DNA of 33,579 bases, from positions 1 through 33,579 of the forward strand of contig JAUMVG010000040.1 of the NCBI GenBank assembly GCA_030530315.1, in the 5' to 3' direction. Under the pieces are notes generated by a model, which did not search any database, was not told where the DNA came from, and saw nothing but the letters and a program-made list of their open reading frames with translations. Positions 3,560 through 31,612 of this stretch are shown piece after piece. The stretch's first letter is position 1; each line of letters starts with the position of its first letter. The DNA comes from Clostridia bacterium (GTDB lineage Bacteria; Bacillota; Clostridia; Christensenellales; Aristaeellaceae). The position numbers were made by a program, and so were the translations under genes.

Positions 3560-3582
3560 TGCTTTCTCCTCCTTACCCTGTA

Positions 3583-13274: not shown

Positions 13275-13916
13275 TCACTCCCCCGATCCCATGTGGATGC
13301 GACCCAGGCCGTAGGGGGACATTTCGGCGTAGACGGCATCGTTGAGCACGCTCTTGAAGCGCTTCTCCAGCAGCGCCGGGTCATCGTAGGCCGATTTGGA
13401 ACGCTTGCTGACGAATACGGACGCCAGCGTGATGAGCGCCGCGGCGATCAGGGTCGGAACCAGAAACCACACCGGACCGGTCATGGAGGGAATGCCTTTC
13501 GAAGCAGCCATAAAAATGAGCACGAGCCACACATACAGAACCACAATGATGAACGGCACAAACCACTTTGGCGTGAGTATTCTGCGCTTGCAGCCAGCGT
13601 CCGGAATGCTGATGATCCCGCATCCAGGACATTTGAATGGAATGGTGCGGGCCCTGATCTGGTCCTTTGAGCCGCGCAGGATGGCTCTGTTCTTCTTCAT
13701 GGCTTCGGCGATCTGAGCAAGCTGGGAATCGGCATTGGCAGCCAGCCGATTCCGGGCTGCGGCTTCGGCACGTTCGGGGGCGTAGTGCTGCACGCTCGCC
13801 TGGCCGGTCATGCGCATATAGCGGGTCAGGGCAACGTCCTTTCCGCACTTCGGGCAGCGGAAGGTGATCACCACAGGGGCGTCCCATGTGGCGGTGGCGG
13901 TGGTACGGGTCGGCAT
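13275..13916 (-). CDS. Zinc-ribbon membrane protein with 'SVLND' tail, 213 aa
   Basis: Cys 21/24 (RCPKCGKD) and 96/99 (KCPGCGII) make a probable zinc ribbon, with a helical Ala/Arg-rich stretch between them. The sequence 'IPDAGCKRR' after the second knuckle, the two membrane helices (about 118-138 and 148-170) and the tail (DPALLEKRFKSVLNDAVYAEMSPYG) all recur in the 223-aa protein at 16533, making these the closest pair in the family. ATG at 13916 has GGAGGTATC upstream. It begins 23 bp after the stop of the 286-aa gene, so the two should be co-translated. Confidence 0.87.
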   Translation of the reverse strand: MPTRTTATATWDAPVVITFRCPKCGKDVALTRYMRMTGQASVQHYAPERAEAAARNRLAANADSQLAQIAEAMKKNRAILRGSKDQIRARTIPFKCPGCGIISIPDAGCKRRILTPKWFVPFIIVVLYVWLVLIFMAASKGIPSMTGPVWFLVPTLIAAALITLASVFVSKRSKSAYDDPALLEKRFKSVLNDAVYAEMSPYGLGRIHMGSGE

Positions 13917-13939
13917 GATGATACCTCCATTCAATTTGT

Positions 13940-14800
13940 CTATTGTGCATACAGCGCCCGGATGTACCCCATGGCGTCGCTCTGCTTGCAGTTCACACCC
14001 CTGTAATCCGACGAGGGGCCGTGTTTGACGCGATCCAGCGACGACCATTCCTTCGTATCGAGGTTGAAGAAGTACAGGTCATAGTCGTAGTCGTGCTTGT
14101 AGTGGCCATAGTTTTTACCACCGCTGCGTGAGGTCACGACGGGCTGGCTCACGGTCATGTGCCTGACGGCAATGATTACGGTCTTCAGCTTCGATACATC
14201 CTCCTGGGCCAGGTAGTAGCGCTCCAGGTGTGCGCCGCCGGCGCTGAAACGGACGACCTGATTGCCGTCCTTGCCGGCGGCGTCGTACCAGCAGAACAGG
14301 TAAGGGGAGGGATAGTGTTCGGTCAGACTTCTGGCATCCTGGACAAAGTCAAAGCCCTCCGCGTGGACCGAGCCGCTGTTGTCCTCGAAGGCCTGCTCCA
14401 GCTCGGCGATCCGCGCATCCCTGCCCAGGTTGTTCTTTGAGACCATATCCAGGCCAAAGGCGCCGGCGGCGACGATCACCAGCAATACCAGGGCGGCCAC
14501 GCGGATTCGCTTTTGCCCACCGCTCTTCCACAGGGTCTGCGTGGATACGCCCAGCATCAGCAGCGGGCCGCCCAGGCATATGTACCACCGGCCCCCGAAG
14601 AGCCACAGCAGAAGCCCGAACACGAGCGCGCAGCCGAAGGGTATGCCGTACAGCTGCTTCTTGCCATTCCCCCCCAGCTTTTCATGCATCACGCCCACGC
14701 CCAGCACCGCGCCGAAGCACAGTATGGCCTGGAGGAGGTAGCCCATGGTGTACAGCCACACCAGCAGGCCGACGGCTACGAGAATAATGATGGTTGACAT
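13940..14800 (-). CDS. Polytopic membrane protein with external domain, 286 aa
   Basis: Four or five hydrophobic segments occupy the first 118 residues (about 2-20, 22-38, 51-68, 71-90, 99-118). The following domain of about 165 aa contains 'YLFCWYDAAGKDGNQVVRF' and a Tyr/Asp-rich strand ('HYKHDYDYDLYFFNLDTKEW'). The domain style resembles the last part of the 285-aa protein at 9182 (display of a value, then 'F..D..T'), but homology cannot be claimed by eye. The ribosome site (GGGTGAG) is weaker than its neighbours'. Confidence 0.8.
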   Translation of the reverse strand: MSTIIILVAVGLLVWLYTMGYLLQAILCFGAVLGVGVMHEKLGGNGKKQLYGIPFGCALVFGLLLWLFGGRWYICLGGPLLMLGVSTQTLWKSGGQKRIRVAALVLLVIVAAGAFGLDMVSKNNLGRDARIAELEQAFEDNSGSVHAEGFDFVQDARSLTEHYPSPYLFCWYDAAGKDGNQVVRFSAGGAHLERYYLAQEDVSKLKTVIIAVRHMTVSQPVVTSRSGGKNYGHYKHDYDYDLYFFNLDTKEWSSLDRVKHGPSSDYRGVNCKQSDAMGYIRALYAQ

Positions 14801-14942
14801 GATGTGATCTCACCCTTCCCTGCATTTCGTGATGAATCCCCTGCCCGGGACGACCAGAGTTCCCTCCGGCAGATGCGGGTACCACAGCGGACTCGATTGA
14901 CGCACACAGAGTCTTTGCGTTTATCCTCGTCGTACCGCTGTG

Positions 14943-15461
14943 TCAGGTCTGATCATACAGATTGCCGTCAAGCGTGAACACCAGCGTGTCGCGGTCGGTT
15001 CCTGCCTGCTTGGCGAGGCAGACCATGATCTTCGCCATGTTGTTCAGGTCGCCCTTGCGGTCATACATCGACTGGGTGAGCTGCACGGTGGGGGACACGT
15101 TGACGTAGTACAGTTTGTCACGGTAGAGGAACTTGGCGTACTTGAAGTCGATCCACGAGCCGTGCTCATGCCAGAATACGCTGTTCGCGGATGCTTCCAC
15201 GGCATACTGCGCCTGTTCGATGCCGGAGGAGGGCGCCATCGGGTGCGCCCGTTCCAGAGCGCGCGCGTCTTCCACGCTGATGCGATACGGCTTGACGCGT
15301 ACGCCCCAGGTCTTCTCAATCGCGTCCAGTATCTTTGCCGTATCGGCGCCAATGGCCCACGCGCAGGCCTTGGCGCTGTCCGGCAGCCAGACCGGCTCCG
15401 CGGTGGCGGCCTGCGGGGCAGGCGCGGTCTTCTTCTTTTTCAGAAAGTCAAAGATTCCCAT
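14943..15461 (-). CDS. Stand-alone copy of the domain inside the HEAT-type protein, 172 aa
   Basis: A short basic start (MGIFDFLKKKK) and an Ala/Pro linker precede a domain (about 25-165) that aligns over its whole length with residues 187-320 of the protein at 610-2667: 'TWGVRVKPYRIS..DARALER', 'EQAQYAVEASANSVFWHE', 'LYYVNVSPTVQLTQSMYDRKG'. No membrane segment is present, so it should be cytoplasmic. Start ATG has GGAGGC upstream. Having the same domain free and embedded in a scaffold suggests interaction or a fusion event. The domain family is not recognised. Confidence 0.85.
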   Translation of the reverse strand: MGIFDFLKKKKTAPAPQAATAEPVWLPDSAKACAWAIGADTAKILDAIEKTWGVRVKPYRISVEDARALERAHPMAPSSGIEQAQYAVEASANSVFWHEHGSWIDFKYAKFLYRDKLYYVNVSPTVQLTQSMYDRKGDLNNMAKIMVCLAKQAGTDRDTLVFTLDGNLYDQT

Positions 15462-15654
15462 CAGAATGCCTCCTTTGAATGATGTTATTTTCTGAACATG
15501 TGATGCAGTTTTCGCAGGCCGTGCCGCTCAGGGGAAGGTGCCCAATATGTGCACCTGTATCAGAGGAGACATGGCTGTGTTCGACCTTCACCCGACACAC
15601 CGTGTCGACGCGTGCTGTCCGCGCTGCCGCGAATGAAAACCCCGTGGGCGGCCG
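15448..15654 (-). pseudogene. Possible relic frame with CxxCxxC motif between two genes
   Basis: Directly after the stop of the 248-aa gene the same frame stays open for about 68 codons. Its second half reads like protein (KVEHSHVSSDTGAH, then TACENCITCSENN) before running into the start of the 172-aa gene. There is no clear start or ribosome site. The Cys cluster resembles zinc knuckles elsewhere in the array. It may be a decayed gene end or chance. Confidence 0.25.
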
Positions 15655-16401
15655 TTACTTCAACTTCGAAGCGTAGGCGTGCGTGGCAAAGCGAAACGTC
15701 TCCGGATCAAACGACTGGTACCCCAGCAGAGATTGCATGATGTAGATCTGCAGCTCGGTAAGCTCAACGCCGACCTCGACGGATTCTCCCGGCGCAAGCT
15801 TACCCAGGAAAGCGTCAGCCTTGAACGCGACGGGAAAGGACGGCGCATCGTCACCGTTGCCCTCAATCAGGAAGAATCCGCCGCTCCCCGAGCACTCCCT
15901 GCTCCCTGCGTTTGTCACGGTTGCACTGATGCGCAGGGTCGGCTCCCCGCCATCCAGTGTGATGACCCCACATTTTTCATCAGATACGGAAAGATCCTTC
16001 GACGCGTCGGTCAAATCCGGAAAACCGAAGCACTCTGTCTGCGGCGCGCCGATGTCGCTCAATTGTTCGGGCACAATTGTAACCGGTTTGGTCGTACACC
16101 AGACGTAGCTCAAATGTCCCGGCATGATGAATCTCGGCGAGCATGAATCCATAAACGCGGTCGTCAGCGCATTCCCTTCACCATCAAGCAAGGGAACGTC
16201 GAACGAATCGAAATAAAGGGGAATATCATCGTTGTTCTGTACCAGGAACAGGGAGCCTACCTGTAGCCGTCCATCCTGCAGGAGTTCGACAAAGCTACCT
16301 TGCGGCTGATAGATGAACAACGCCTCCTCCTCAGCCAGAGCCATGGTCGCGCAGAGAATCGCGAGAGCGCAGATGAGCGCCAGAGAAATCCTTTTTCCCA
16401 T
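15655..16401 (-). CDS. Secreted beta-rich protein, 248 aa
   Basis: A signal peptide (MGKRISLALICALAILCATMALA, cleavage near residue 23) leads into a mature protein of about 225 aa. Alternating hydrophobic and polar residues suggest a beta-sandwich: 'GSLFLVQNNDDIPLYFDSFDVPLLDGEGN' near the start and 'LAPGESVEVGVELTELQ' near the end. The latter is typical of immunoglobulin-like 'DUF5067/DUF4352-type' extracellular domains, which have the same 'N.....L.....V.....PG' pattern. That assignment is tentative. GGAGG precedes ATG. Confidence 0.8.
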   Translation of the reverse strand: MGKRISLALICALAILCATMALAEEEALFIYQPQGSFVELLQDGRLQVGSLFLVQNNDDIPLYFDSFDVPLLDGEGNALTTAFMDSCSPRFIMPGHLSYVWCTTKPVTIVPEQLSDIGAPQTECFGFPDLTDASKDLSVSDEKCGVITLDGGEPTLRISATVTNAGSRECSGSGGFFLIEGNGDDAPSFPVAFKADAFLGKLAPGESVEVGVELTELQIYIMQSLLGYQSFDPETFRFATHAYASKLK

Positions 16402-16449
16402 GAAGCAAACCTCCTCACTTTACTGATAAATTCTTCACGCGAGGCCCAA

Positions 16450-16524
16450 TCAGAAATCCTCCCGGTCGGAGCCCACGCCCTCGGCGGCGGGGCTGTCTTC
16501 CTGCATGTTCACAGTGATTGAGAC
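16450..16524 (-). pseudogene. Relic: C-terminal tail of the 818/1399-aa secreted protein family
   Basis: About 24 codons read VSITVNMQEDSPAAEGVGSD then REDF-stop. They match the final residues of the proteins at 18977 (TITVNVQENNPDAEGVGSD...) and 21524 (TITVNVQEDNPDAEGVGSD...). The fragment starts just after the stop codon of the unrelated 223-aa zinc-ribbon gene and has no start of its own. It is a clear footprint of a third family member removed by recombination, with three codons lost near the end compared with the intact copies. Confidence 0.75.
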
Positions 16525-16532
16525 GGCGGGAG

Positions 16533-17204
16533 TTATTTCTCGGAACCGATGTGGATCTCGTCGAAGCCATACGGCGTCATATCGGCATACATTGCATCGT
16601 TGAGGACACTCCCAAACACCCTTTCCATCAGTCGCGGATCATTGTAGGCCTTTTTCGAGAGGCTTTTGTCGACCAGAAACAGCGCCGTGGCGATGGCGAG
16701 ACAGGCGAGGAAGACGTATAGCGCCTGGAGCCGGAACGGGCCGGACAGCCTCAAGGACCCACCGAGGGCTGCCAGGAAGGCTGCTGTCCCACCAACGACC
16801 AGCAGCGTGAGCAGCGCCCACTTGATCAACCTGTGCATCAACAGCCCGCGCTTACAGCCCGCGTCCGGACGGTTTATGATGCCGCAGGCGGGGCAGCGCA
16901 GAGGCGGCCAGAAGATGCTGGGCTTATCAGGCCGGTCCATCAGAGAAGCCGTGTTGTGCTTCAATTCCCGAACCGCCGATTCCAGCCGCCAACCCATTGA
17001 TCCTGCCATTTCGGCTTCAGCTCTGGCGCTGGCAATCTGCCCGGCTCCAACCTGACGCCCCTGATCGTTTCGCAGGGTCACCTCGGTTGAGAAGTTCAGA
17101 TATCGTGTGATCTCCGCGTCTTTGCCACATTTTGCGCAGCGGAAGTGAATTTGCACCGGGCAGCTGGACGACGCGCGTCCGGTGACAGATACGACTTTTG
17201 CCAT
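16533..17204 (-). CDS. Zinc-ribbon membrane protein with 'SVLND' tail, 223 aa
   Basis: Cys 23/26 (RCAKCGKD) and 104/107 (RCPACGII) form the predicted zinc ribbon. Two membrane helices follow (about 127-148 and 158-178), and then the tail (DPRLMERVFGSVLNDAMYADMTPYGFDEIHIGS). It is the closest relative of the 213-aa protein at 13275. The two share 'GII..PDAGCKR' and the end 'IHxGS', which the 215-aa protein at 4355 lacks. Start ATG has AAGGAGGAT upstream. Its 3' end directly adjoins the relic tail at 16450, which suggests a recombination junction immediately after this gene. Confidence 0.86.
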   Translation of the reverse strand: MAKVVSVTGRASSSCPVQIHFRCAKCGKDAEITRYLNFSTEVTLRNDQGRQVGAGQIASARAEAEMAGSMGWRLESAVRELKHNTASLMDRPDKPSIFWPPLRCPACGIINRPDAGCKRGLLMHRLIKWALLTLLVVGGTAAFLAALGGSLRLSGPFRLQALYVFLACLAIATALFLVDKSLSKKAYNDPRLMERVFGSVLNDAMYADMTPYGFDEIHIGSEK

Positions 17205-17305
17205 AGCGAAATCCTCCTTTATGGTCTTGCTGGTCAGAAAAACACCTCAGTCCGTCTTTGATTTGGCGCAGAAGAGCTGTTCCTCCCGTTGTCCGTTTTT
17301 CGCAT

Positions 17306-18799
17306 CTATCCTTTGCAAAGCCAGATATTCTCGGGAGAAATATCCATTACAGCGGACAAAACGCTTTCCATACTGACGATAAACCAGCGATCCCCATAGC
17401 GTACCAACTGGGGAGCGACAAGGTATTCCTCGCCGTCAACGGTAAACAGCGCCGCGATATCCGCGAGTTCGTCCGCTCCGTACATCACGCGGTACTTCTC
17501 CAGGGTATTTCTGATGCCTTCTGAAGCCGCATACTCAGGCGCGACGGCCTCCGGAGCCACAAAGCGGATATCGTCCAGGGTGCCCAGCCGATCCACGCGG
17601 CCCAGGTCAAAAAGGGCGGACACGGCACGCGCTTCCTCGTCGCCACGCACACCCAGCGCGCGCTTGGTCATCCATTCCTGCGAGTCATAGAACGCGCCGT
17701 TCGTGGCATAATTGACCATGCCGGAGCGCAGGCCTTCCAGCCGCCATTTCACCATCATGCCCATATCGATCTGCTCCAGCAGCGGGTTGTCGTCAGGGAA
17801 AACCGGCCAATTACCGGCGCCCTGATAGTAGGAGCGGCCCAGGGCCACACTGCGCAACGTAGCATGCCCGGCCAGGCTCTCCCAGGCGAAAGCCTCCATC
17901 ATCGTGTTCAGGCTGTTCTTTTTGAGACCTGACAGATACAGAGCCACCGCCGCCTCCGGGGTGGTGCCGCCCGTCTCCCGCCACGGCAGGGCCAGGTCAA
18001 CCGGTGCCGGCGTCTCACCCGGCGCTGTTCCGGAATCTGAAGCCTCTCCTGTCAGACGGAATGCTCCCTCGTCGCCATACAGGTGAGAATAGTTTGACAA
18101 CGAGCCAAAAAGACTCACGATGTACCAGCTCTCCCCATACCGGCCCAGCATCGGCGCGCAAGCGTATTCCTGGCCACCCAGGGTAAAGAGCGCGGCCCGT
18201 TCACAGACCTCCTCCGCCCCATAGAGGATGCGGAAACGCTCCAGCGCTTTCAGGCTTTTCTCGCCGTAACTGCCCCCTGTGGCCTTCTCCGGCGTCAGCA
18301 CGCGAATGTGATCCATTCCGGCAAGGCGATCCAGTAATGAAAGATCAAAAGATGCCAGCAGCGCATCCGCCTCCTCCTCTGTTTTGATGTATCCGGATCG
18401 CAGTAAGTGAGCAGGCCGGTCTTCGCCCTTCTGCGCATCCTCATGAAGAGTCATCTTTGCAAAGGACAGGCTCAGGGCTTCCACCCTCCCGCCCATGAGC
18501 AGCGCTTCGTCGATCTCGCTCAGGAGTCCGGCGTCTCCCGGGAAGGCCGGCCAGCCTTCAGGACTATAGGAGTGAGAAGACTGCAGGATCTCAGTAAACC
18601 GATCCCCGACGCGGCATTGCTCCCAGGCGAACGCACCGAAGGCTTTGTTAAGATCCAGGTCCTGAAGGCCCGACAGAAAGGCCATTACAGCCTCTTCCGG
18701 CGTGGAAAAGCCGGGGCTGCTCCATGGTGCGGCTGCTTCTCCCAGAGCAAATGCAGGCATCAGGACCATACACAGGAATAATGCGATCAGACGTTTCAT
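17306..18799 (-). CDS. Secreted protein of two tandem homologous units, 497 aa
   Basis: A signal peptide (MKRLIALFLCMVLMPAFALGEA) is followed by two copies of one unit: about 28-237 and 276-485. Matching positions include 'TPEEAVMAFLSGL'/'TPEAAVALYLSGL', 'GWPAFPGDAGLLSEID'/'NWPVFPDDNPLLEQID', 'DRLAGMDHIRVLTPE'/'DRLGTLDDIRFVAPE', 'YGAEEVCERAALFTLGGQEY'/'YGADELADIAALFTVDGEEY' and 'GRYGESWYIVS'/'VRYGDRWFIVS'. A short Pro/Gly linker joins them. The unit starts with a helical 'PEEAV..FL..L...D' region like those of clostridial NTF2-like or DUF4878-type extracellular domains; this is tentative. GGGAGG precedes ATG. Confidence 0.85.
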   Translation of the reverse strand: MKRLIALFLCMVLMPAFALGEAAAPWSSPGFSTPEEAVMAFLSGLQDLDLNKAFGAFAWEQCRVGDRFTEILQSSHSYSPEGWPAFPGDAGLLSEIDEALLMGGRVEALSLSFAKMTLHEDAQKGEDRPAHLLRSGYIKTEEEADALLASFDLSLLDRLAGMDHIRVLTPEKATGGSYGEKSLKALERFRILYGAEEVCERAALFTLGGQEYACAPMLGRYGESWYIVSLFGSLSNYSHLYGDEGAFRLTGEASDSGTAPGETPAPVDLALPWRETGGTTPEAAVALYLSGLKKNSLNTMMEAFAWESLAGHATLRSVALGRSYYQGAGNWPVFPDDNPLLEQIDMGMMVKWRLEGLRSGMVNYATNGAFYDSQEWMTKRALGVRGDEEARAVSALFDLGRVDRLGTLDDIRFVAPEAVAPEYAASEGIRNTLEKYRVMYGADELADIAALFTVDGEEYLVAPQLVRYGDRWFIVSMESVLSAVMDISPENIWLCKG

Positions 18800-18976: not shown

Positions 18977-19849
18977 TTAGAAATTATCCCAGCTCTCCCA
19001 ATCCGATCCCACGCCCTCGGCGTCGGGATTGTTCTCCTGGACGTTTACAGTGATGGTGGAGCTGTAGTTCTTCTTGAGCTGGACCTCCTGCTGACCGTCG
19101 CCGAAGGTCATGATCTCATAGTAGCCCTCGCTGCCGAAGGCCTCCTCTTCGCCGTACCAGTTGTGGCCGGTGCCGTCCTTGATGACGTAGGTGCCCGCGG
19201 GCAGGGAGGTCTTGGCCTTGCCGGTGCCGCCGATGAACATCGTGCGGGCCAGCACGCCGTCGGTGGTGTAGATTTTCACCAGCATGGCGGTGTCCGGATC
19301 GGTGTTGAACTGCACGGCCAGCTCGGTGCTGCTGCCCTTGATCTCGGGGTTCTTGTACAGCACGCCGGTCTTGGGCCATTTCTGCACGCAAGCCCCGGCG
19401 CGGGACTCCCAGTCGCCCCAGCCGCTCTGCTCAAACAGATCCCTGGCCGAGGCGTATTTTCCCTGGGCCACCAGCGCACAGGCGCGCATGTAGTCGTACT
19501 CGCCAGAGTCCATCTGCCCCGCCAGCAGCGCGTCGGCCTCGTCGGGATTTGTGACCATCAGCAGCCTCGGCAGCAGCGCGGCGTAGCCCCCTGCATCCAG
19601 TTCTTCGGTTTCGGGAAGTCCGAAGGCCGCCTGCACGGCGTTCAGCGCGGCGATGGATTTTGACCCGACATTCCCGTCCACGGCGATGTTCTGCCCGAAG
19701 GCCACCAGCGTCTGCTGCACGCCCCTGGCGGCGTCGCCCTTGCTGCCCTTCCGGATGACCTCGCCGGAGAGCAGCGCGTCGTAGGTGGCGCGATAGGTGT
19801 CGTCATTCAGCGCGGTGAGCACCTCATCGATGGAAGCCTCTCCGGCAGG
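18977..19849 (-). repeat. Long direct repeat, copy A: 3' module of the 818-aa gene
   Basis: These roughly 870 bp encode residues 529-818 and match 21524-22393 at high nucleotide identity (long runs are identical on inspection). Both copies are in the same orientation about 1.7 kb apart, so homologous recombination between them could delete or swap the variable parts of the two genes. Confidence 0.8.
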
Positions 19850-21433
19850 CTCCAGGGTCGGCTCCGGCGTGGACGCAGGTGGGGAGGCCACGCGCGCGGC
19901 CTCCACGAGCTCCGTCAGCCGAACCCTCGCGTCCGCGGCATGAAACTGCCCGCTCGCCTCGGAGGACTGAGTAATGCCATTGGCGGTCTGGACAGTGAGG
20001 GTCAGGGGCGGTTCCTCCGACACCACCATCTCCTTATATTGCACGCCCGTCTCCAGGTCGAACAGTGAAAGCCAGGTATTCGTCCGATGCGCCGCGATGT
20101 TACCGTACCAGCCTACATGCACATATGTGGGATAGATGATCGCTGCCCAGCGGGCCGATTCAAAATCGTCTGCCCGGTATTCACGGGGAAAACCCCATGT
20201 GTCATCAGAATCGGCCGTGAGTATCTGGCTCGGATTGGCATCCTCGCTTCCGGAGGAATAGTAGGCCACAACCACATCCCCGGTGCACACCGCCTTGTCA
20301 ATGGAGGTCCCGTTTTCATTGAGCGCCCGCCTGTGAAGCTCGTTCAATGCAACGATGTCCGCCGGCACAGGTGTTGAGGTGGGCTCGGGTGTGAGTTCCG
20401 GCGTGGGAGACGGTGTGGGTACAGTCAGTGCGTACCCCTCCTTGGGCAGCCCGCTCAGCGGGTAAAGCACGCCGTCATACAGCAGTTCAAAGTCATCCTC
20501 GTCCCCATCGCACTGGAAGACATAAGTGAGATCAAAGCGCCAGACGGGCGCCCCGTCTTCCGCATCAAAGGGCAGAATGACGCGCTTCGGCAGATCCTGC
20601 GTTCCGTCCGCCTTGCAGCGCAGGGCCAGTGTCGGGGCGATTTCTTCTTTGATTCTGTCATAGGTCAACGGCTCCACCAGAGAGTGAAGGCGCAGGATAA
20701 ACAGGTAAGTGCCGCTGCCGGGCATCAACCCAATGGTGTTGACCAGGAGGTCCCAGTTTGTCCATTGAGACGCGAAGAGTTCCAATTCAAAGCTTTCCTC
20801 ACCGCCGTTCCATTCGACGCGGGTCTGGCCCGCGTCCGCATGCCGATAGTTTTCTGCCGCGGGCTCAAGCGTGGGTTCGGGGGTGGGCTCAGTCGATTCC
20901 GCGCCCGCGAGGGTCGGCGCATTGGCCTGTGGGACGATCGGATCGCCCAGCGGGGTGGATGACGGCTGCGCCGCTTCAGCAGGGGCATCTTCCCCGGCGG
21001 GAGCGCTCGACCTGCCCTCCTTCCCTTCAGCGGCCTTTTCACACTCGGCGGTGTAGGCATAGCTGCCGCCATTGGCGAAGGTGGTGGTGATGTCCAGCTT
21101 CAAAACGCCGTCCTCCAGCGCCCAGGTGCCGCCACACGCGCTGATGCCCAGGGTGTTGTCGGCGGGGATGTCCACGGAGAAGGCGCTGTCGTCGCTGGAG
21201 ATGGTGAAGGGATAGCTCTCGTGGTAGCCGCCCTGGTCGAAGGTGTACTCGCCGCTGCCGTCGCCGTTGATGGTCGCGGTCAGGTCGATGGCCGGGCCGC
21301 CGTTCTTCGGCGTGCCTACACCTGTCCATTCGCCCATCAGCGCCTCCGGGATGGAGGATCCAGCTTCGGCCGACGCGGACAGGGCGCAGAGCAGCAGGGC
21401 CAGGACAATCAGGATCGCAAACAGCCTTTTCAT
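18977..21433 (-). CDS. Modular secreted wall-binding protein, 818 aa
   Basis: A signal peptide (cleavage near ASA, about 22) is followed by a lipocalin-like beta module (28-131, 'GEWTGVGTPKNGGPAIDLTAT'). A Pro/Thr/Glu linker (about 180-192) leads to a module (205-332) also found in the 1399-aa neighbour (ending 'VLYPLSGLPKEG'). A second PT linker (340-357), a unique domain (about 360-510) and a third linker follow. Then come a peptidoglycan-binding domain (PG_binding_1, 557-625, 'GSKGDAARGVQQTLVAFGQNIAVDGNVG'), a TPR-like pair and a beta domain ending in the tail GVGSDWESWDNF. No hydrolase domain is seen. It should be secreted and held by cell-wall peptidoglycan. RBS AAGGAGG. Confidence 0.9.
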   Translation of the reverse strand: MKRLFAILIVLALLLCALSASAEAGSSIPEALMGEWTGVGTPKNGGPAIDLTATINGDGSGEYTFDQGGYHESYPFTISSDDSAFSVDIPADNTLGISACGGTWALEDGVLKLDITTTFANGGSYAYTAECEKAAEGKEGRSSAPAGEDAPAEAAQPSSTPLGDPIVPQANAPTLAGAESTEPTPEPTLEPAAENYRHADAGQTRVEWNGGEESFELELFASQWTNWDLLVNTIGLMPGSGTYLFILRLHSLVEPLTYDRIKEEIAPTLALRCKADGTQDLPKRVILPFDAEDGAPVWRFDLTYVFQCDGDEDDFELLYDGVLYPLSGLPKEGYALTVPTPSPTPELTPEPTSTPVPADIVALNELHRRALNENGTSIDKAVCTGDVVVAYYSSGSEDANPSQILTADSDDTWGFPREYRADDFESARWAAIIYPTYVHVGWYGNIAAHRTNTWLSLFDLETGVQYKEMVVSEEPPLTLTVQTANGITQSSEASGQFHAADARVRLTELVEAARVASPPASTPEPTLEPAGEASIDEVLTALNDDTYRATYDALLSGEVIRKGSKGDAARGVQQTLVAFGQNIAVDGNVGSKSIAALNAVQAAFGLPETEELDAGGYAALLPRLLMVTNPDEADALLAGQMDSGEYDYMRACALVAQGKYASARDLFEQSGWGDWESRAGACVQKWPKTGVLYKNPEIKGSSTELAVQFNTDPDTAMLVKIYTTDGVLARTMFIGGTGKAKTSLPAGTYVIKDGTGHNWYGEEEAFGSEGYYEIMTFGDGQQEVQLKKNYSSTITVNVQENNPDAEGVGSDWESWDNF
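21041..21352 (-). repeat. Direct repeat, copy A: lipocalin-like module
   Basis: This stretch encodes residues 28-131 of the 818-aa protein and matches 25010-25327 (residues 133-238 of the 1399-aa protein) at high nucleotide identity. Together with the 3' repeat it brackets a variable centre. Confidence 0.78.
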
Positions 21434-21523
21434 AGGGTCAGCCTCCTTATGTCATGGACGGCTCTATTGACAACCTTTCTTGCTTTTGGCGCCATCGAGA
21501 ACCGTCCGTTGACTCCCGTTCTT

Positions 21524-22393
21524 TTAGAAATCCTCCCAGCTCTCCCAGTCCGAGCCCACGCCTTCGGCGTCGGGGTTGTCCTCCTGCACGTTCACGGTGA
21601 TGGTGGAGCTGTAGTTCTTCTTGAGCTGGACCTCCTGCTGGCCATTGCCGAAGGTCATGATCTCATAGTAGCCTTCGCTGCCGAAGGCCTCCGCCTCGCC
21701 GTACCAGTTTTTCCCCACGCCGTCCTTGATGATGTAGGTGCCCGCGGGCAGGGAGCACGTGGCCTTGCCGGTACCGCCGATGAACATCGTGCGGGCCAGC
21801 ACGCCGTCCACGGTATAGACCTTCACCAGCATCGCGGTGTCGGGGTCGGTGTTGAACTGAACCGTCAGCTCGGTGCTGCTGCCCTTGATCTCGGGATTCT
21901 TGTACAGCACGCCGTTCTTGGGCCAGGGCTGGACGCAGGCCCCGGCACGCGCTTCCCAGTCGCCCCAGCCGCTCTCCTCAAACAGGGATTTGGCCGAGGC
22001 GTATTTCCCCTGGGCGATGAGGGCGCAGGCGCGCGTGTAGTCGTATTCGCCCGCGTCCATCTGTCCCGCCAGCAGTTCGTCGGCCTCTTCGGGATCCGCG
22101 ACCATCAGGAGCCTCGGCAGCAGCGCGGCGTAACCCTCGGCGTCCAGCAATTCCGTTTCGGGAAGCCCGAAGGCCGCCTGCACGGCGTTCAGCGCGGCGA
22201 TGGTCTTGGGACCCACGTTTCCGTCCACGGAAATGTCCTGACCGAAGGCCACCAGCGTCTGCTGCACGCCCCTGGCGGCGTCGCCCTTGCTGCCCTTCTG
22301 GACGACCTCGCCGGAGAGCAGCGCGTCGTAGGTGGCGCGATAGACATCGTTATTCAGCGCGTCAAGCACGTCGTCGATGTCGGCCTCCCCAGC
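21524..22393 (-). repeat. Long direct repeat, copy B: 3' module of the 1399-aa gene
   Basis: This is the partner of 18977-19849. It covers the peptidoglycan-binding domain, TPR-like pair, beta domain and acidic/aromatic tail. Confidence 0.8.
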
Positions 22394-25300
22394 CTCCTCG
22401 ATGGGCTCCGGGGTGGGCTCGGGCGTCGGCGTCGCCGTGGGTTGGGGTGTCGGGGTCGGGGTCGGCGTCGGGGTGGCTTCCGGCCGCAGGGGTTCGCCTT
22501 CCTCGGGAAGACCTGCCAGCGAATAGAGCACGCGGTCGCAGAGGAAATCCCAGCTCTCCAGAGGCGCCCATTCTTCGGAGTGATAGACGATGTCAAACGC
22601 CTCGATCGGGGTCTCGCTGCCCGCCTCAGCGCCCGTGATGACCGCGTATGGGGCGACCTCTGCCCCGGACGGCGAGCGGAGCTTGAACGAATCCTGAATG
22701 GCCATGATCCCGTCGTGGGTGATCGTCCCGTTCACCGGGGCCAGGCGCACCACCATTTCACAGCCGTTGGCAAAGCCCGGAAGGGACAGGAAACCGTTGG
22801 TCAAGTCCCGGATGTTGTTGGTAAACAGCTTGAATTCAAAATCTGCCGGGCTGTCCGGACAATGCACCACGTCGCCACCGTATTCAAACTCCGGCACCCT
22901 GGCGCGCGCCTCCTCCGGCAGAGCATCCACTGCCTGCTGATCGTAGTGGATCGCGATCAGCGTTCCCGCGTCCACGCGCCCGGTCGGATTCAGCCCGCAG
23001 GCAGTCTGCAGCGCCTTCACCGCGTCTTCGGTCTGCGCGTCATAGAGCCCGCTGGCCTCGCCCGATAGGCAGCCCCTGTCGATGAGCGCCTGCTGAAGCG
23101 CCGCGACGCCTTCGCCCTGAGTGCCGGGGTTCAGACCCCATCCGTACCAGCTGAGAACGGCATCCACAAAGACTGCCATCTCGGGGGTGTTTTCCAGCTC
23201 CGGCGGAAGCCTCCAGTTCTTTGAACCCCCATTGGTTGTGATGGTGTTTCCCGGATTCTGAGTCAGCGAGAAGCCCGTTCGGTTTTCGAGATGGCTGAGC
23301 TGTACGGCTTCAAGTGTCACGGTGCTGGAATAGGCGGAGCATCTGTAGGTGCCCTGACCATAGGTCGCATAGAATTTGTAGGTCTGACAGGCGGAGATCA
23401 GCACGTCGGCACTGTCAGGGTCCTCCACGAACCGGATCGTCCGGCCCGATGCCTCTTCGATCTCCTCCATCCACTCTTCCAGGTATCTGGTGATGGAATC
23501 CACCAGCCCCTTATCGCGCACCTTGTACATGTCGTCGCCATTGATGCCCACGTCGCAATCCGCATGGGTGACCATGTAGGCGTTCAGCGGCTGGGGATGG
23601 GCGGGAGCGTACACAGGCATGCCGTCCGTGATTTCAACGCCATAGCGCTCCGCCAGGTGCTGCGCCGTGTCGTAACCCGAGGACGAGCGCTCCTCCCGGG
23701 CCATGCCGGGTAGGATGGCGGGTTCTGCTTCCGCTTCTCCTTCCGCTGTTCCCGGCATATTGTCAAGCCGCAGGCGGATCACCGGGCGGACCGCGACATC
23801 TTCCACGTACCCTTCAACCAGGGTATCGCCGTAGACCTTGCCATTCAAGCCGACACCGTCGCCGCGCCGAGTATTCCTGAAGTGTCGCAGCCACCATTGA
23901 CACGTTCCCGATTCAGATACATCCGCGCCTCTGGCGATGGCGAATTGCGTCGGTTCACACATCCGCTCCGCATCAGAAGAGAAGTATCGACGCGCCTCCT
24001 CAGCGGAGAGCAGATAGACCTGATCGCGCGTGGCAACCTCATCATCGGCGGGAGCGGAGAATACACCGTTTACAGTGACGACGGATGTTTCAATCCTCGC
24101 CTGCTCATCCGCCGCGAAGGCCGTGTTCAGAAAATCGTCGTTCAACCATACGTGCAGTGAACAGTACCTCCAGTCTGCGCTGCCAAAGCGATAACCGGAT
24201 TCATTGCAGGGCTTGGCATCCAGTCCATACCGGCTGATCAGCGTTGCCACTGCGTCCTCTGTATCCAACACGATCCACTCGATGGGCTCGGGACCGTTGG
24301 CATCGTCGCCGTCCTGCTCATAGCGGCCGAAGGTCACGGTGTCGCCGACTTCGACGGACGACGGCTCCTCCGCGGGCTCCTCGACAGGTTCCTCGACAGC
24401 TTCCTCCGCGGTCTCCGCCCTCGTCCCCATGGGAACGAAGCCCATGATGACCTCCAGGTCCGTTTCTCCCGCCTGGGAGGTCAGGCCGTTGTCCATGGTC
24501 TGACTCTGGATGTCCACATGGGTGACGTAGGTGAGGGACAGGGCATCACCCTCCTGGCCCACGGTCATCTCGATGTCGCCGGGCATAAGGCGCAGGGTGT
24601 CGCCGTTCAGGGTATATTCGTCATAGCCCGTCAGATCCAGCTCCGGCACGGAGAAGGGCAGCTGGGGCACAGCCTCGATCAGTCCGTTCAGATCGATGTC
24701 CGTGTAGACTGTGTTGTACGCCAGGATCAGGAGATTGCCATAGGTGCTGCCGCCATTCAGGCTCAATCCGCCATCGATGGAATAGGGGCTGTCCTCGCTG
24801 AGGGTCTTGAAATGGATCGTGTCCAATTGCCATTCCCGATCCGCCCAGGCGGGTTCATCCGCGACGCCGTCACCAGCCTGATCTTCTCCGTTGGTCCCGG
24901 ATGTCGTGGGGAAACTCGGCTGAACAGGCTGTATGTTCGGTATGACGGGCTGGAATCCCGCAGGGTCAGATGCGTCCGCGACGCCGTCAGCAATGGCCTC
25001 CGCTTCCGCCTTCCCGCACTCGGCGGTATAGGCATAGCTGCCGCCATTGGCGAAGGTGGTGGTGATGTCCAGCTTCAAGACGCCGTCCTCCAGCGCCCAG
25101 GTGCCGCCGCACGCGCTGATCCCCAGGAGGTTATCCACGGGGATGTCCACGGAGAAGGCGCTGTCGCTGCTGGAAATGGTGAAGGGATAGCTCTCGGTGT
25201 AGTCATCCTGGATGAAGGTGTATTCGCCGGTGCCGTCGGCGTTGATGGTTGCGCTCAGGTCGATGGTCGGCCCGCCGTTCTTCGGCGTGCCCGTACCCTG

Positions 25301-25723
25301 CCATTGACCGACCAGTTCGTCGGGGATCGCCGGTTCCGCATCCGGGTTTTCCCACAGCATGATGGGGTTCTCAGCATCCTGGGTGGGAATCATCAGTATG
25401 GAATCCGGCAGCGTGTCCCGGTCAAAGCGGTAGGTCACATCAGCGCCGAACAGTATGTCCTTGTCCGAGGCATGCAGCCTTTCTTCGCCATAGACCGGCA
25501 CGATGTCAGCCGCCAGCTGAACGCCCTCCGGTCCAATGGCCATCGTCTGCGCCATGCCGTTGAGGGCCACGTACAGTCGTCCGTCCTTAATCTCTACGCT
25601 CTCCAGGGAGATGTGATACTGGTTCCCGTTCATGGCCACATCCGCCGAGCCGAGTTCGGCCAGGGCGGGCAAGGGGCAGATCAGCAGGGAAAGGGTTATC
25701 AGGATTGCAAGCAGCTTTTTCAT
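21524..25723 (-). CDS. Giant modular secreted wall-binding protein, 1399 aa
   Basis: A signal peptide (MKKLLAILITLSLLICPLPALA) is followed by a unique beta region (24-130), the lipocalin-like module (133-238), a beta region (295-405) and an acidic EEP-repeat linker (436-454). A DUF6273-like domain comes next (456-653, 'VTFGRYEQD...PIEWIVLD', 'VWLNDDFLNTAF', 'VRPVIRLRLD'). A Cys-containing domain (680-845) precedes a first peptidoglycan-binding domain (860-928). The module shared with the 818-aa protein (958-1075), a pure PT linker (1083-1108), a second peptidoglycan-binding domain (1138-1206), and the shared C-terminal region with tail GVGSDWESWEDF complete it. Two wall-binding domains imply firm wall attachment. 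RBS AAGGAGG. No catalytic domain is recognised. Confidence 0.9.
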   Translation of the reverse strand: MKKLLAILITLSLLICPLPALAELGSADVAMNGNQYHISLESVEIKDGRLYVALNGMAQTMAIGPEGVQLAADIVPVYGEERLHASDKDILFGADVTYRFDRDTLPDSILMIPTQDAENPIMLWENPDAEPAIPDELVGQWQGTGTPKNGGPTIDLSATINADGTGEYTFIQDDYTESYPFTISSSDSAFSVDIPVDNLLGISACGGTWALEDGVLKLDITTTFANGGSYAYTAECGKAEAEAIADGVADASDPAGFQPVIPNIQPVQPSFPTTSGTNGEDQAGDGVADEPAWADREWQLDTIHFKTLSEDSPYSIDGGLSLNGGSTYGNLLILAYNTVYTDIDLNGLIEAVPQLPFSVPELDLTGYDEYTLNGDTLRLMPGDIEMTVGQEGDALSLTYVTHVDIQSQTMDNGLTSQAGETDLEVIMGFVPMGTRAETAEEAVEEPVEEPAEEPSSVEVGDTVTFGRYEQDGDDANGPEPIEWIVLDTEDAVATLISRYGLDAKPCNESGYRFGSADWRYCSLHVWLNDDFLNTAFAADEQARIETSVVTVNGVFSAPADDEVATRDQVYLLSAEEARRYFSSDAERMCEPTQFAIARGADVSESGTCQWWLRHFRNTRRGDGVGLNGKVYGDTLVEGYVEDVAVRPVIRLRLDNMPGTAEGEAEAEPAILPGMAREERSSSGYDTAQHLAERYGVEITDGMPVYAPAHPQPLNAYMVTHADCDVGINGDDMYKVRDKGLVDSITRYLEEWMEEIEEASGRTIRFVEDPDSADVLISACQTYKFYATYGQGTYRCSAYSSTVTLEAVQLSHLENRTGFSLTQNPGNTITTNGGSKNWRLPPELENTPEMAVFVDAVLSWYGWGLNPGTQGEGVAALQQALIDRGCLSGEASGLYDAQTEDAVKALQTACGLNPTGRVDAGTLIAIHYDQQAVDALPEEARARVPEFEYGGDVVHCPDSPADFEFKLFTNNIRDLTNGFLSLPGFANGCEMVVRLAPVNGTITHDGIMAIQDSFKLRSPSGAEVAPYAVITGAEAGSETPIEAFDIVYHSEEWAPLESWDFLCDRVLYSLAGLPEEGEPLRPEATPTPTPTPTPQPTATPTPEPTPEPIEEAGEADIDDVLDALNNDVYRATYDALLSGEVVQKGSKGDAARGVQQTLVAFGQDISVDGNVGPKTIAALNAVQAAFGLPETELLDAEGYAALLPRLLMVADPEEADELLAGQMDAGEYDYTRACALIAQGKYASAKSLFEESGWGDWEARAGACVQPWPKNGVLYKNPEIKGSSTELTVQFNTDPDTAMLVKVYTVDGVLARTMFIGGTGKATCSLPAGTYIIKDGVGKNWYGEAEAFGSEGYYEIMTFGNGQQEVQLKKNYSSTITVNVQEDNPDAEGVGSDWESWEDF
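22400..22477 (-). repeat. Pro/Thr codon microsatellite in the wall-spanning linker
   Basis: This encodes residues 1083-1108 of the 1399-aa protein, an alternating P-T run with a few Q, A and E. The DNA is a simple repeat of ACCCCGACGCC-like units and so is prone to length change. Such linkers usually cross the cell wall. Confidence 0.8.
25010..25327 (-). repeat. Direct repeat, copy B: lipocalin-like module
   Basis: This is the partner of 21041-21352. It encodes residues 133-238 of the 1399-aa protein, including the identical block 'GISACGGTWALEDGVLKLDI'. Confidence 0.78.
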
Positions 25724-29068: not shown

Positions 29069-30754
29069 TCATTCCGCCGGGAACCAGGCTTCCTCCGCGC
29101 CCGGGGTCCAGACTTCGTGGTGCGGCCAGCCGCTGTTTCCGTCTGGCTGTTCAAAAGCGGAAGAACCTTCCTGCGCATAGAGGACTGCGTCAACTCCGCA
29201 GGAGTACACCGCCGACGAACTCAGTTCCGTCACTGACGCCGGTATAAACACAGCCTCCAGCTCCTCGCATTTATACACCGCACTGCCCTCCACCTTTCGC
29301 ACCGTGTCTGGGAACAGCACGGCCCGCAGGGCATCGTTCTTATAGAAAGTATCTTCCCTGACGATGGCCACGGGACAGCCGCCCAGGGTATCGGGCACCC
29401 GGACGCAGGTCTCATCGCCTGAATAGCCAGTCAGGATTGCCTCATCCTCCAAAATGGCATACTCAAAGCCGTCCTCAACGGCATACATGGGAATGGACAT
29501 GTCCTGCGCACGCTCGCAGGGCACCCATTCATAGCCCCTGTACTTTGCCAGGCGCGCGGCGGCGCTGTCCTCGGGAGTGTAGATGCGGATGCCGCCGTAG
29601 TCGAACAGGTCGGTGCCAAAGGTGGTCACGCTCGCAGGCACAAAGACGCAGAGCACGCGGCTGTAGTGCATCAGAAAGTAATCCTTCAGCGCCGTCACAC
29701 CCTCGGGCACCACGATGGCGGAACAGTCTGCCCCCTTGAGCACGCCCCGGCCCATGGTCTTCAACGTGGATGGCAGTGAAAACGCCTCGCCGCTGCCGTG
29801 CATCAAGGCAAAGTCGCCGATTTCCATCAGACCCTCGTTCAGGATCATTTCGTCCAGACCCTCGGGTACATCTTTCTCGATCCGACGCAGCGTCGAGGGG
29901 AAGTTCATTTTGCGCAGGTTTTCCCCTTGCACTGTCTGTATCCAGACGATGCCCTCGGGCAGCACCAGCTCCTCCAGCGCATCGTTCCGGCAATCTTCAA
30001 TGCCCACGACCGGGTATCCCTCCACTTCTGCGGGAATCTCATAGCGTGTGAACTCGCCCTCCAGCCCCGCCAGGCAGCAGGTCTGGCCGATGATGCGGTA
30101 GGTGGCCGTCCCCTCGGGATACGATACCTCGATGACCCCGTAGAACCACTGCCGCACACCGCTCCACAGGTCGGAGAGGGAGAGACGCTCGCCGCTCAGG
30201 CTGCCGTAGCCGGTCACCGGAGGCGTCGTCAGGATGTGGTAAGCCGTGGTGAACACATGATCGCCCCGGTGGTAGACATAGGCATAGTAATTCCGGTTGG
30301 ACGCAAAGCCGATATAATCGTCGCGCGACTGGGTGGTGTGCACCAGACACAACACGGCGTCGGCCTCCTCCAGCGACGCGGCGCGCATGGCCTCCGGGAT
30401 ACGGACCTGCCAGTCGCCCAACAGGCGGTAAGTACCTTGGTCATCATAAATGGCGATGAACTTCGCGCCCTTGAAGTCCTGGACGGAAAGCTCCGCTTCC
30501 TCCATTTCCGTTTTGAACAGCAGATCCCCCGGCAGCGGTTGCGCCGGTTCGCAGGTCAGGGAGGCTTCCCACCCACCGTTCTCCAATTCGGAGGCGCATT
30601 CTAATGAGACCTCATGGAGCAGCGCCAGCTGTTCGTCGAGGGTGGCAGCAGTCTGCACGGACTGCGCCGCGGCTTCCAGAGCGCCTTCTGCAGTTGCGGG
30701 CAAGGTGCAGAGCAGCAGGGCAAGCGTTATCAAAATTACAAGCAGCTTTTTCAT
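29069..30754 (-). CDS. Secreted BspA-type leucine-rich-repeat protein, 561 aa
   Basis: This is a full-length paralog of the 567-aa protein at 25790: same signal peptide type (MKKLLVILITLALLLCTLPATA), same 'TAATLDEQLALLHE' segment, same N-terminal domain ('AKFIAIYDD', 'LLGDWQVRIPEAMRAASLEEADAVL'), then LRR_5 repeats (about 235-400 and 445-530). The repeats are more degenerate than in the paralog, and overall similarity is moderate by eye, so the duplication is old. It is the first gene of the minus-strand array. A candidate promoter lies 100-140 bp upstream. RBS AAAGGAG. Confidence 0.88.
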   Translation of the reverse strand: MKKLLVILITLALLLCTLPATAEGALEAAAQSVQTAATLDEQLALLHEVSLECASELENGGWEASLTCEPAQPLPGDLLFKTEMEEAELSVQDFKGAKFIAIYDDQGTYRLLGDWQVRIPEAMRAASLEEADAVLCLVHTTQSRDDYIGFASNRNYYAYVYHRGDHVFTTAYHILTTPPVTGYGSLSGERLSLSDLWSGVRQWFYGVIEVSYPEGTATYRIIGQTCCLAGLEGEFTRYEIPAEVEGYPVVGIEDCRNDALEELVLPEGIVWIQTVQGENLRKMNFPSTLRRIEKDVPEGLDEMILNEGLMEIGDFALMHGSGEAFSLPSTLKTMGRGVLKGADCSAIVVPEGVTALKDYFLMHYSRVLCVFVPASVTTFGTDLFDYGGIRIYTPEDSAAARLAKYRGYEWVPCERAQDMSIPMYAVEDGFEYAILEDEAILTGYSGDETCVRVPDTLGGCPVAIVREDTFYKNDALRAVLFPDTVRKVEGSAVYKCEELEAVFIPASVTELSSSAVYSCGVDAVLYAQEGSSAFEQPDGNSGWPHHEVWTPGAEEAWFPAE

Positions 30755-30866
30755 GGATTCAGTCTCCTTTGGTGCCGTCGTGGTTTGAGTACGCGTTCCA
30801 AGGGCTCGCTTCGATCGTCAGAAACCGGAATTGAGGAAAGCGTCTCCCAGATATTTCTATATTATC

Positions 30867-30930
30867 ATTTTACCATACCGAAACACAATGACAATACCAA
30901 TGACTAATTTTTCATTGACAAATCATTGAC
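30867..30930 (-). promoter_or_regulatory. Candidate array promoter overlapped by four CAATGA/TCATTG elements
   Basis: On the minus strand TTGTCA (30889-30894) and TAAAAT (30867-30872) are spaced 16 bp in AT-rich DNA, a good vegetative promoter. CAATGAC occurs at 30886-30892 and 30898-30904, and the inverted form TCATTGAC at 30912-30919 and 30923-30930. The first element covers the -35 box and the others lie just upstream. This layout suits an operator for a dimeric repressor or activator. Start of transcription would be near 30860, about 105 nt before the first gene's ATG. Confidence 0.55.
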
Positions 30931-30936
30931 TTTTTC

Positions 30937-31107
30937 TTAATTGGTACGGAGCACAGCGAGCAGGTTATTGAAGTCCTCACGCAGCGCGGCGACAGTGGTG
31001 GCACCGCTGTCAGGCACATCGGGAAGGATCATGCAATCCCTGCAGGGAATGTCGAACAGTCCCTCCGCGCCTTCCACAGTCGCTCCGGGCTGGAAGGTCA
31101 GCTTCCC
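30937..31107 (-). pseudogene. C-terminal relic resembling a phage head-fibre protein
   Basis: The last 56 codons of a longer open frame read GKLTFQPGATVEGAEG, then ATTVAALREDFNNLLAVLRTN-stop. 'GATVEG' followed by 'ATTVA.L..DFN.LL..L' resembles the C-terminus of phage head-fibre proteins as I recall them. Upstream of about 31107 the base composition changes sharply and the frame stops looking like the same protein. The rest of the gene is absent, so this is a prophage remnant cut by the AT-rich insert. Confidence 0.5.
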
Positions 31108-31213
31108 GCCGATGACGATTATCAAAACCAAAATAAAATCACAACCTTTCGTTATCAGTTGGGAATATAGGCAAGAACCATGAGAAAAGTGTTTGGGATA
31201 ATTTTGGTTATGT

Positions 31214-31612
31214 TTATTTCTTGGATATACCACAGAATTCCAACAGTGATCCATCAGGATTCCTCCACTTTTTGTTGACCTTGGAGTCGCTTTCGCTTTC
31301 AATTGTTGCAAGTGCCTTCACCTCGTCTTCTTGGGTAATATCAAGGTAAACCATAGTAGTTTCAATCTGTTTATGTCCTAAGAGAAAGGAGATCTGAACA
31401 ATGTTCATACCATCTTCTAACCAATGAGAGGCTTTCGCATGACGAAACTGATGCGCATGGAGTGTCAAAGGAACCTCTTCACATGTTTCATGTGCCAAGC
31501 GAGCATATTTCTTCAACATCTTATCCACTGCTGCTGCTGTCAACTTACCAAAGGCACCAACATTGCGGGAATAAAACACATATGCCTCCGGATTAGGGTG
31601 ATTCCCATGTTG
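31214..31612 (-). pseudogene. Tyrosine recombinase/integrase, C-terminal fragment
   Basis: The frame contains HAHQFRHAKASHWL (HxxR box), LLGHKQIETT (LGH box) and TTMVYLD (catalytic Tyr), the hallmarks of the C-terminal catalytic half of XerC/D- or Tn554-type tyrosine recombinases. The first catalytic Arg and the N-terminal DNA-binding domain are missing. Upstream of about 31612 the frame runs into sequence belonging to another gene. Its codons are clearly AT-richer than the surrounding array, which marks it as foreign. It should be inactive. Confidence 0.85.

Follow-up and report, generated by a model that had tools for sequence, protein, structure and literature searches.

Surface proteins of mosaic, modular build are well known from Gram-positive bacteria. 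PspA/PspC, the alpha-like proteins and the MSCRAMMs all combine a signal peptide and a wall-attaching part with exposed, exchangeable modules which recombine between lineages. Here we describe two adjacent genes of similar organization, encoding proteins of 818 and 1399 amino acids (aa; P0001 and P0002, the products of gene 1 and gene 2), in a Clostridia bacterium related to ruminant-gut species (GCA_030530315.1, draft genome G000). They lie in the window, which is the whole contig JAUMVG010000040.1 (C126; 33,579 nucleotides, nt) of a 3.58 Mb draft in 144 contigs that is 94% complete and 6% contaminated. In contrast to PspA/PspC and the MSCRAMMs, neither protein has a sortase or choline-binding family among its Pfam matches up to E 0.5, and wall contact would be made by a peptidoglycan-binding domain (PG_binding_1) within a tailed C-terminal module, hereafter CT. 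The modules designated below as LIP, DUF6273, FEL and MID are also not known as modules of the PspA/PspC, alpha-like and MSCRAMM families. We found no account of this protein family in the literature searched and, judged by Pfam, NCBIfam and that literature, it looks like an undescribed family of a known kind. We conclude that these surface proteins form a mosaic family which diversifies from lineage to lineage; switching within one strain is unproven.

Several other systems offer themselves for comparison. In Neisseria pilE/pilS, Treponema TprK and Mycoplasma vlhA, constant parts likewise surround a variable core, with repeats that could guide recombination. Here, however, no silent cassettes were found (the CT tail pattern has two matches in the draft), each of the two copies is a complete gene with an open frame, and there is no homogenisation of their ends. 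Rhs and contact-dependent inhibition (CDI) proteins also join a constant to an exchangeable part; in P0001 and P0002, however, the variable part is central and not the C-terminal tip, and Pfam and NCBIfam scans returned no toxin family, while no search for immunity genes was made. Closer to the locus, the neighbouring proteins P0003 and P0006 match the BspA-type leucine-rich repeat (LRR) proteins (PF13306) and have a leader in common with the pair, whereas P0001 and P0002 show no LRR family match. A last comparison concerns DUF6273, which is present in P0002 and several relatives. Passages of PMC10743442 describe this domain as resembling the C-type lectin fold and, together with passages of PMC11792537, as a hypermutation target of retroelements in gut phages, the variable region being at its C-terminus; a gut-bacterial peptidase with an N-terminal DUF6273 and a likely wall-anchoring motif appears in a passage of PMC12402451. 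As far as these passages go, a lectin-like domain that is a target of hypermutation fits a binding role for P0002. Compared with the retroelement-associated proteins, however, no reverse transcriptase (RVT_1) was found in the genome and DUF6273 is one module of many in a wall-type protein.

Modules and divergence of the pair

The two genes are adjacent, as the original prediction had it. They lie on the minus strand (18977-21433 and 21524-25723) and their reading frames are open throughout; all module coordinates refer to that strand. From its N-terminus, P0001 consists of a signal peptide, the lipocalin-like module LIP from aa 28 (21033-21352), FEL (20414-20821), MID (19886-20377), which is not found in gene 2, and CT (18977-19872; alpha). 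In P0002 the signal peptide is followed by the 108-aa U1 (25334-25657), a module absent from gene 1 with relatives in genomes G025, G011 and G012, and then by LIP (25008-25327), U2 (24428-24853), DUF6273 (aa 496-650, 23774-24238; PF19789, E 1.9e-14), U3 (23138-23695), an extra PG_binding_1 domain (PF01471; aa 869-924, 22952-23119), a FEL homologous to that of gene 1 (22469-22903) and CT (21524-22416; beta). Both the DUF6273-like and the extra wall-binding domain had been foreseen for the longer protein. LIP, on the other hand, is not at the 5′ end of the longer gene as claimed, but internal, starting at aa 133 behind U1. Its lipocalin name is hinted at by a Lipocalin_4 match below the cut-off in one of the two copies, that of gene 2 (E 0.019, 16.3 bits against 22.4). 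The N-termini of both proteins resemble signal peptides when judged by eye.

CT is made up of peptidoglycan-binding, tetratricopeptide repeat (TPR)-like and beta-rich parts and ends in a conserved tail, GSxxExWxNF then stop in gene 1 (18977-19009) and GSxxExWxDF then stop in gene 2 (21524-21556). PG_binding_1 scores 81.4 bits in P0002, where two stretches including that in CT are matched, and 22.2 bits in P0001 against a cut-off of 23; the CT profile retrieves a solved peptidoglycan-binding protein with a best E of 4.8e-6. Beyond this part CT has no Pfam name. In NCBIfam its beta-rich part matches a sorting domain of the type IX secretion system (T9SS), though below threshold (18.7 bits, cut-off 23; E 0.0012). 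A general sorting tail was rejected: a degenerate pattern of the CT tail matched only these two genes in the draft, and the control gave 0 matches.

An alignment of identity along both genes refuted uniform divergence. By blastn the 3′ block is 86.7% identical over 896 columns (18977-19872 versus 21524-22416) and the LIP block 87.3% over 322 columns (21033-21352 versus 25008-25327). The common 0.87-kb and 0.3-kb blocks expected by the original prediction therefore exist, but "near-identical" overstates their likeness, since synonymous divergence (dS) amounts to 0.38 in CT and 0.32 in LIP. The 22 signal-peptide codons give 0.35 and, as the three values are alike, the ends seem to be of much the same age and not young. 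CT of G014, G027 and G025 differs from the two window copies by a similar dS of 0.37-0.43, and a third CT allele, found on a contig from sheep duodenum (L006, see below), by 0.23-0.31. FEL is the one diverged core module that the two genes have in common, as had been claimed: its nucleotide identity is 47% as against 86-88% in LIP and CT, and the proteins are 30% identical there in a global alignment and 36% (E 2.3e-12) in a search. All other core modules are confined to one gene, MID to gene 1 and U1, U2, DUF6273, U3 and the second peptidoglycan-binding domain to gene 2. Along the chromosome the order is end, start, end, start, confirming the direct repeats.

The data lend no support to a recent conversion event between alpha and beta or between the two LIP copies. 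At a dS of 0.32-0.38 there is no surplus of long exact tracts; the longest, 57 nt in CT and 50 nt in LIP, are within codon-shuffled expectation and were reached in 200 and 134 of 2000 shuffles, respectively. A reservoir of partial or silent copies was not found either, no further complete CT being found in the draft. P0001 matches five places in G000, and the sole one off this contig is the peptidoglycan-binding part on contig C118. There (L052, 7180-13491) a 1112-aa protein ends in the peptidoglycan-binding part of CT without the TPR-beta part. The next protein, of 925 aa, resembles P0003 with its LRRs, so that the two form a second, partly similar locus.

CT and its cores in related genomes

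CT marks a modular secreted family with many different cores. Of the 28 genomes of the genus, 24 contain some match to P0001, and a complete C-terminal module, counted as rows from about residue 518-535 or earlier through 818 of P0001, is present in 12 (G000, G007, G008, G011, G012, G014, G016, G021, G022, G025, G026 and G027). Three named relatives are metagenome-assembled genomes (MAGs): one from sheep duodenum, recorded as "Clostridia bacterium", and two of the RUG series, recorded as Clostridiales and Lachnospiraceae. At the level of the family the CT profile matches 189 of 200 genomes at E<=0.001; among the matches listed, the weaker ones are mostly the peptidoglycan-binding or the beta part alone and the complete ones are patchy. 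We examined 39 stretches (the window, L006, L037-L053 and L178-L197), of which the 20 family-level ones were hand-picked among strong CT hits, so that the architecture count is not a random sample. They hold 28 genes with a full CT and eight with the TPR-beta part only.

Four of the genes with a full CT are truncated on the 5′ side and were not counted; the other 24 display 11 assigned core architectures, with five genes lacking an assigned core. LIP-FEL-MID, FEL-MID and U3 were each seen three times, U2 and U1 twice, and U1-U2-DUF6273-FEL, U1-DUF6273-LIP-FEL, U1-LIP-DUF6273-DUF6273, U1-DUF6273-FEL-MID, U1-DUF6273-DUF6273 and P0002's own U1-LIP-U2-DUF6273-U3-FEL once; this count includes one LIP-FEL-MID gene on the suspect contig L006 and a U2 gene of G011 that may belong to a frameshifted longer gene. 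The relatives thus carry the same modules in other order or number. Among them the cores vary while the 3′ end stays recognisable; the tail, GSxxExWx[DN]F, is exact in 11 of 15 aligned rows and has small changes in the other four. For the core of P0002 the longest single match outside G000, among the matches listed, covers 384 of 1078 residues (G025). U3 joined to a peptidoglycan-binding domain also exists on its own, in genes for about 290-320 aa, in G018, G023 and G013, and beside the CT gene in G011. In the latter genome (L042, 277-3178 of G011:C392) two overlapping frames, one with U1-LIP-MID and one with U2-CT, precede this U3 gene; they are either a single gene with a frameshift or two distinct genes.

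The clearest case of an exchanged core comes from the sister genomes G014 and G027, where the contigs bearing the orthologous gene are long (400 and 155 kb) and the same gene (zinc-ribbon-like by eye) follows downstream. In bins of 60 nt, FEL shows a nucleotide identity of 89-95%, MID and its linker one of only 52-75%, and CT and the downstream flank again 87-100%. Expressed as aa/nt identity, the values are 87/90 for FEL, 53/62 for MID, 83/88 for the peptidoglycan-binding part and 96/95 for the TPR-beta part, and a single 1552-bp block over CT and the 3′ flank is 93.5% identical. The 5′ ends are unlike, G014 having a LIP and G027 none. MID of G027 is closer to that of P0001, and MID of G014 closer to that of G026 (59% aa each), than the two sisters are to one another (53%). 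The clade of G014 and G027 is supported by FEL (100/99) and CT (98/93) but rejected by the MID tree (approximately unbiased (AU) test, p 4.7e-5), which places G014 with G026, G024 and G009 (96/97). The three module trees comprised 10, 9 and 15 rows; they included two of the 20 family-level stretches but neither the suspect gene of G007 nor the third CT gene of that genome. Taken together, these alignments and trees show that the core module MID was replaced between conserved neighbours in the two species.

As a species yardstick we used recA, which is 92.6% identical in nucleotides between G014 and G027, the recA region of G000 and G027 being 93.8% identical; against this, FEL of P0001 and G027 is 53% identical in nucleotides. 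The rpoB genes of G027 and G000 are 97.9-98.9% identical. As an only yardstick rpoB was dropped, since the recA region disagrees with it, and little is drawn from it because G000 is 6% contaminated. Synteny of the window with G027 was not established, few DNA matches being found in G027 for other parts of G000.

Origin of the pair and competing explanations

We consider it rather likely that P0001 and P0002 are neighbouring members of a Sec-exported, wall-associated modular family whose cores are swapped by recombination between lineages, the pair itself consisting of duplicated ends with one core replaced. CT would probably hold the protein at the cell wall, as the peptidoglycan-binding domains suggest, and the N-terminal and central modules, including the C-type-lectin-like DUF6273, would be the exposed, exchangeable part. 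Homologous recombination between related lineages could then swap the DNA between conserved modules, with CT as the landing site on the 3′ side and FEL, LIP or the leader on the 5′ side. For the window pair, the most likely course is that LIP and CT, ends of similar age of an ancestral gene, were duplicated and that the core of one copy was replaced. The order of duplication, exchange of the RecA type, wall anchoring, exposure and the binding of surfaces or ligands are all things we infer from sequence comparison. The proteins might be antigens or adhesins, as the original prediction labelled them. What stands of the proposed diversification locus is the variation of cores and the replacement of MID between lineages; no switching within a strain is shown.

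A number of points weigh against this explanation. The genomes of the genus are draft assemblies with between 50 and 470 contigs each, and the clades submitted to the AU test were chosen after the identities had been seen. P0001 and G027 come out as MID sisters with a support of only 64/4, too little to name a donor of the G027 MID, and the CT tree groups P0001 with P0002 at only 80/90. In the FEL tree, which has long branches, P0001 and P0002 as sisters are not rejected (AU p 0.28), so that for this module of the window pair faster evolution of the core without exchange is possible. The PG_binding_1 match of P0001, finally, is 0.8 bit short of the Pfam cut-off.

The last FEL result would be expected if, after a plain tandem duplication and without any exchange, the ends had stayed under strong constraint while selection on the cores was relaxed or positive. 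FEL being homologous though very divergent and the similar dS of LIP, CT and the signal-peptide codons (0.32, 0.38 and 0.35) also agree with such a history. We nevertheless judge it improbable, given that the cores are unlike in kind (MID as against U1, U2, DUF6273, U3 and a second peptidoglycan-binding domain), that FEL has diverged to 47% where LIP and CT retain 86-88%, and that the MID topology contradicts FEL and CT in the sister genomes. A more dynamic possibility, building on the original prediction, is that recombination between the direct repeats within one population repeatedly creates chimeras or deletes a gene, in the manner of antigenic variation. The direct order of the repeats agrees with this, and so does L006 (G007:C193, identical to JAFWBZ010000310.1 from sheep duodenum), a mosaic of the sort that the prediction leads one to expect. 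It starts with alpha CT, 814 nt without a mismatch, passes through an exact 44-nt tract (771-814) into the beta 3′ end and continues with the identical 90-nt intergenic region and with gene 1, two mismatches apart up to 2626, before it turns into the third CT allele (85.5% identical to beta and 88.2% to alpha). Its downstream flank is 87% identical to that of the window, and recA of G007 and G000 89.8%. In the same vein, the gene of G012 is split over two contigs whose overlap, exactly 99 nt long, lies in LIP, which fits an assembly branch at this point and is consistent with LIP having several neighbours in the assembly graph, by strain mixture or duplication. However, the alpha-beta dS of 0.38 without a surplus of long exact tracts speaks against ongoing exchange, and only two of the 39 stretches hold two CT genes, L006 being one of them. 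The first 79 nt of L006, moreover, recur exactly at 2548-2626. The default k list of the assembler MEGAHIT includes 39 and 79, and the 79-nt self-overlap fits a branching node at k=79, while the 44-nt tract could be crossed at k=39; L006 may therefore be an artefact, which fits the chimera as well as biology does. The mosaic would be explained, too, if gene 1 were present in tandem copies. Judging from the sample name, the record probably stems from a gut MAG study of sheep and other ruminants, duodenum included, whose main text (PMC8199421) does not contain the label RGIG. According to its passages on assembly, MEGAHIT 1.1.1 was used, for which k options are not specified, and single samples were also assembled by IDBA-UD at k 90-124. 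On balance we find an active locus of this kind unlikely, and doubt to the same extent that the pair is a live chimera generator within a gut-commensal population with L006 as a captured recombinant, that is, tandem gene 1 copies with different CT ends.

Misjoining of repeated modules could also have affected the window, which is the whole contig of a 144-contig draft and belongs to a family whose contigs break at these modules in relatives. This is highly improbable, as L006, which comes from another bin (whether or not from an independent sample), matches the beta 3′ end, the 90-nt intergenic region and the start of gene 1 exactly, the CT copies share no exact tract longer than 57 nt and both reading frames are open throughout. 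That hypermutation of DUF6273 by a diversity-generating retroelement drives the variation is hardly credible. The domain is known as such a target in gut phages, with a C-terminal variable region, in the passages of PMC10743442 and PMC11792537 mentioned above, but the exchange of whole modules would not be explained and P0001 has no DUF6273. Reverse transcriptase RVT_1 was not found in G000 (two candidates scored, none passing; no search aimed at template repeats was made), so a retroelement is not indicated; 8 of 13 genomes searched lack a match, the CT-gene genomes G014, G025, G012, G022 and G102 among them.

Two further candidates were rejected. Of 31 inverted pairs, the 25 longest were inspected, and none of these is arranged regularly round the modules as an invertible element or shufflon would be. 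For phage-borne genes, viral contigs confirmed 3 of 77 pattern matches, each covering 35-36 residues of the peptidoglycan-binding part; phage records gave one match to P0002, within its DUF6273 part.

RVT_1 is present in the other five of the 13 genomes (G011, G021, G027, G037 and G077; L217-L225). Around the L006 locus gene content varies: L006 3435-4465, compared with window 13940-18799, is without P0004 and the genes at 15655-16401 and 14943-15461. Another assembly break at CT is seen in L178 (G037:C128), where the contig ends 4 nt past the stop codon of the CT gene.

Surroundings of the pair and significance

Gene 2 and gene 1 close a minus-strand series of five secreted-protein genes, which begins with P0006 (29069-30754; LRR_5 of the BspA type, PF13306, E 4.1e-16) and continues with P0005 (27555-29000; no Pfam match) and P0003 (25790-27493; again BspA-type LRR_5, PF13306, E 4.9e-23). 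The gaps within the row are 61 to 90 nt, which suggests that the five genes may be an operon. A scan for promoters and terminators gave counts at or below those of shuffles (4 versus 3.8 and 4 versus 8.9); the best promoter-like site, at 30894-30867 on the minus strand upstream of P0006, is by itself no evidence. The leader of gene 1, comprising the Shine–Dalgarno sequence and the signal peptide (21358-21460, minus strand), is not specific to the pair: its DNA is 82% identical to that of P0005, 77% to P0003, 74% to P0006 and, in a 92-column match, 78% to P0002. A genome search with it returned four further short matches at E<=0.001 and was not exhaustive, as it missed the P0002 leader.

Recombinase genes start 5.5 kb from gene 2. 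One is a tyrosine-recombinase fragment, in which the catalytic half alone matches, the other a large serine recombinase with a reading frame that continues to the end of the contig (together 31214-33579); a dip in G+C content to 48% at 30501-31500 adjoins them, and the region is perhaps the end of a mobile element. PADLOC reported no defence system for the six proteins submitted at E 0.01. Elsewhere in the window, small proteins with CxxC pairs, zinc-ribbon-like by eye and with hydrophobic segments, are encoded at 2765-3586, 4355-5002, 10071-10691, 13275-14048 and 16533-17204, their Pfam matches, where any, being under the cut-off. By eye, a 172-aa protein (14943-15461) resembles residues ~190-320 of a 688-aa protein (610-2676), another module common to both.

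Across one gut-type Clostridia family, CT is a C-terminal module attached to many different cores, and G014 and G027 provide a concrete sister pair in which a core module has been exchanged between conserved neighbours. Assemblies from short reads can be interrupted or wrongly joined at modules of this kind, and apparent chimeras in MAGs therefore need long reads. If the cores with lectin-like DUF6273 meet the host, feed particles, phages or competitors, the family would offer a handle on the diversification of commensal surfaces.

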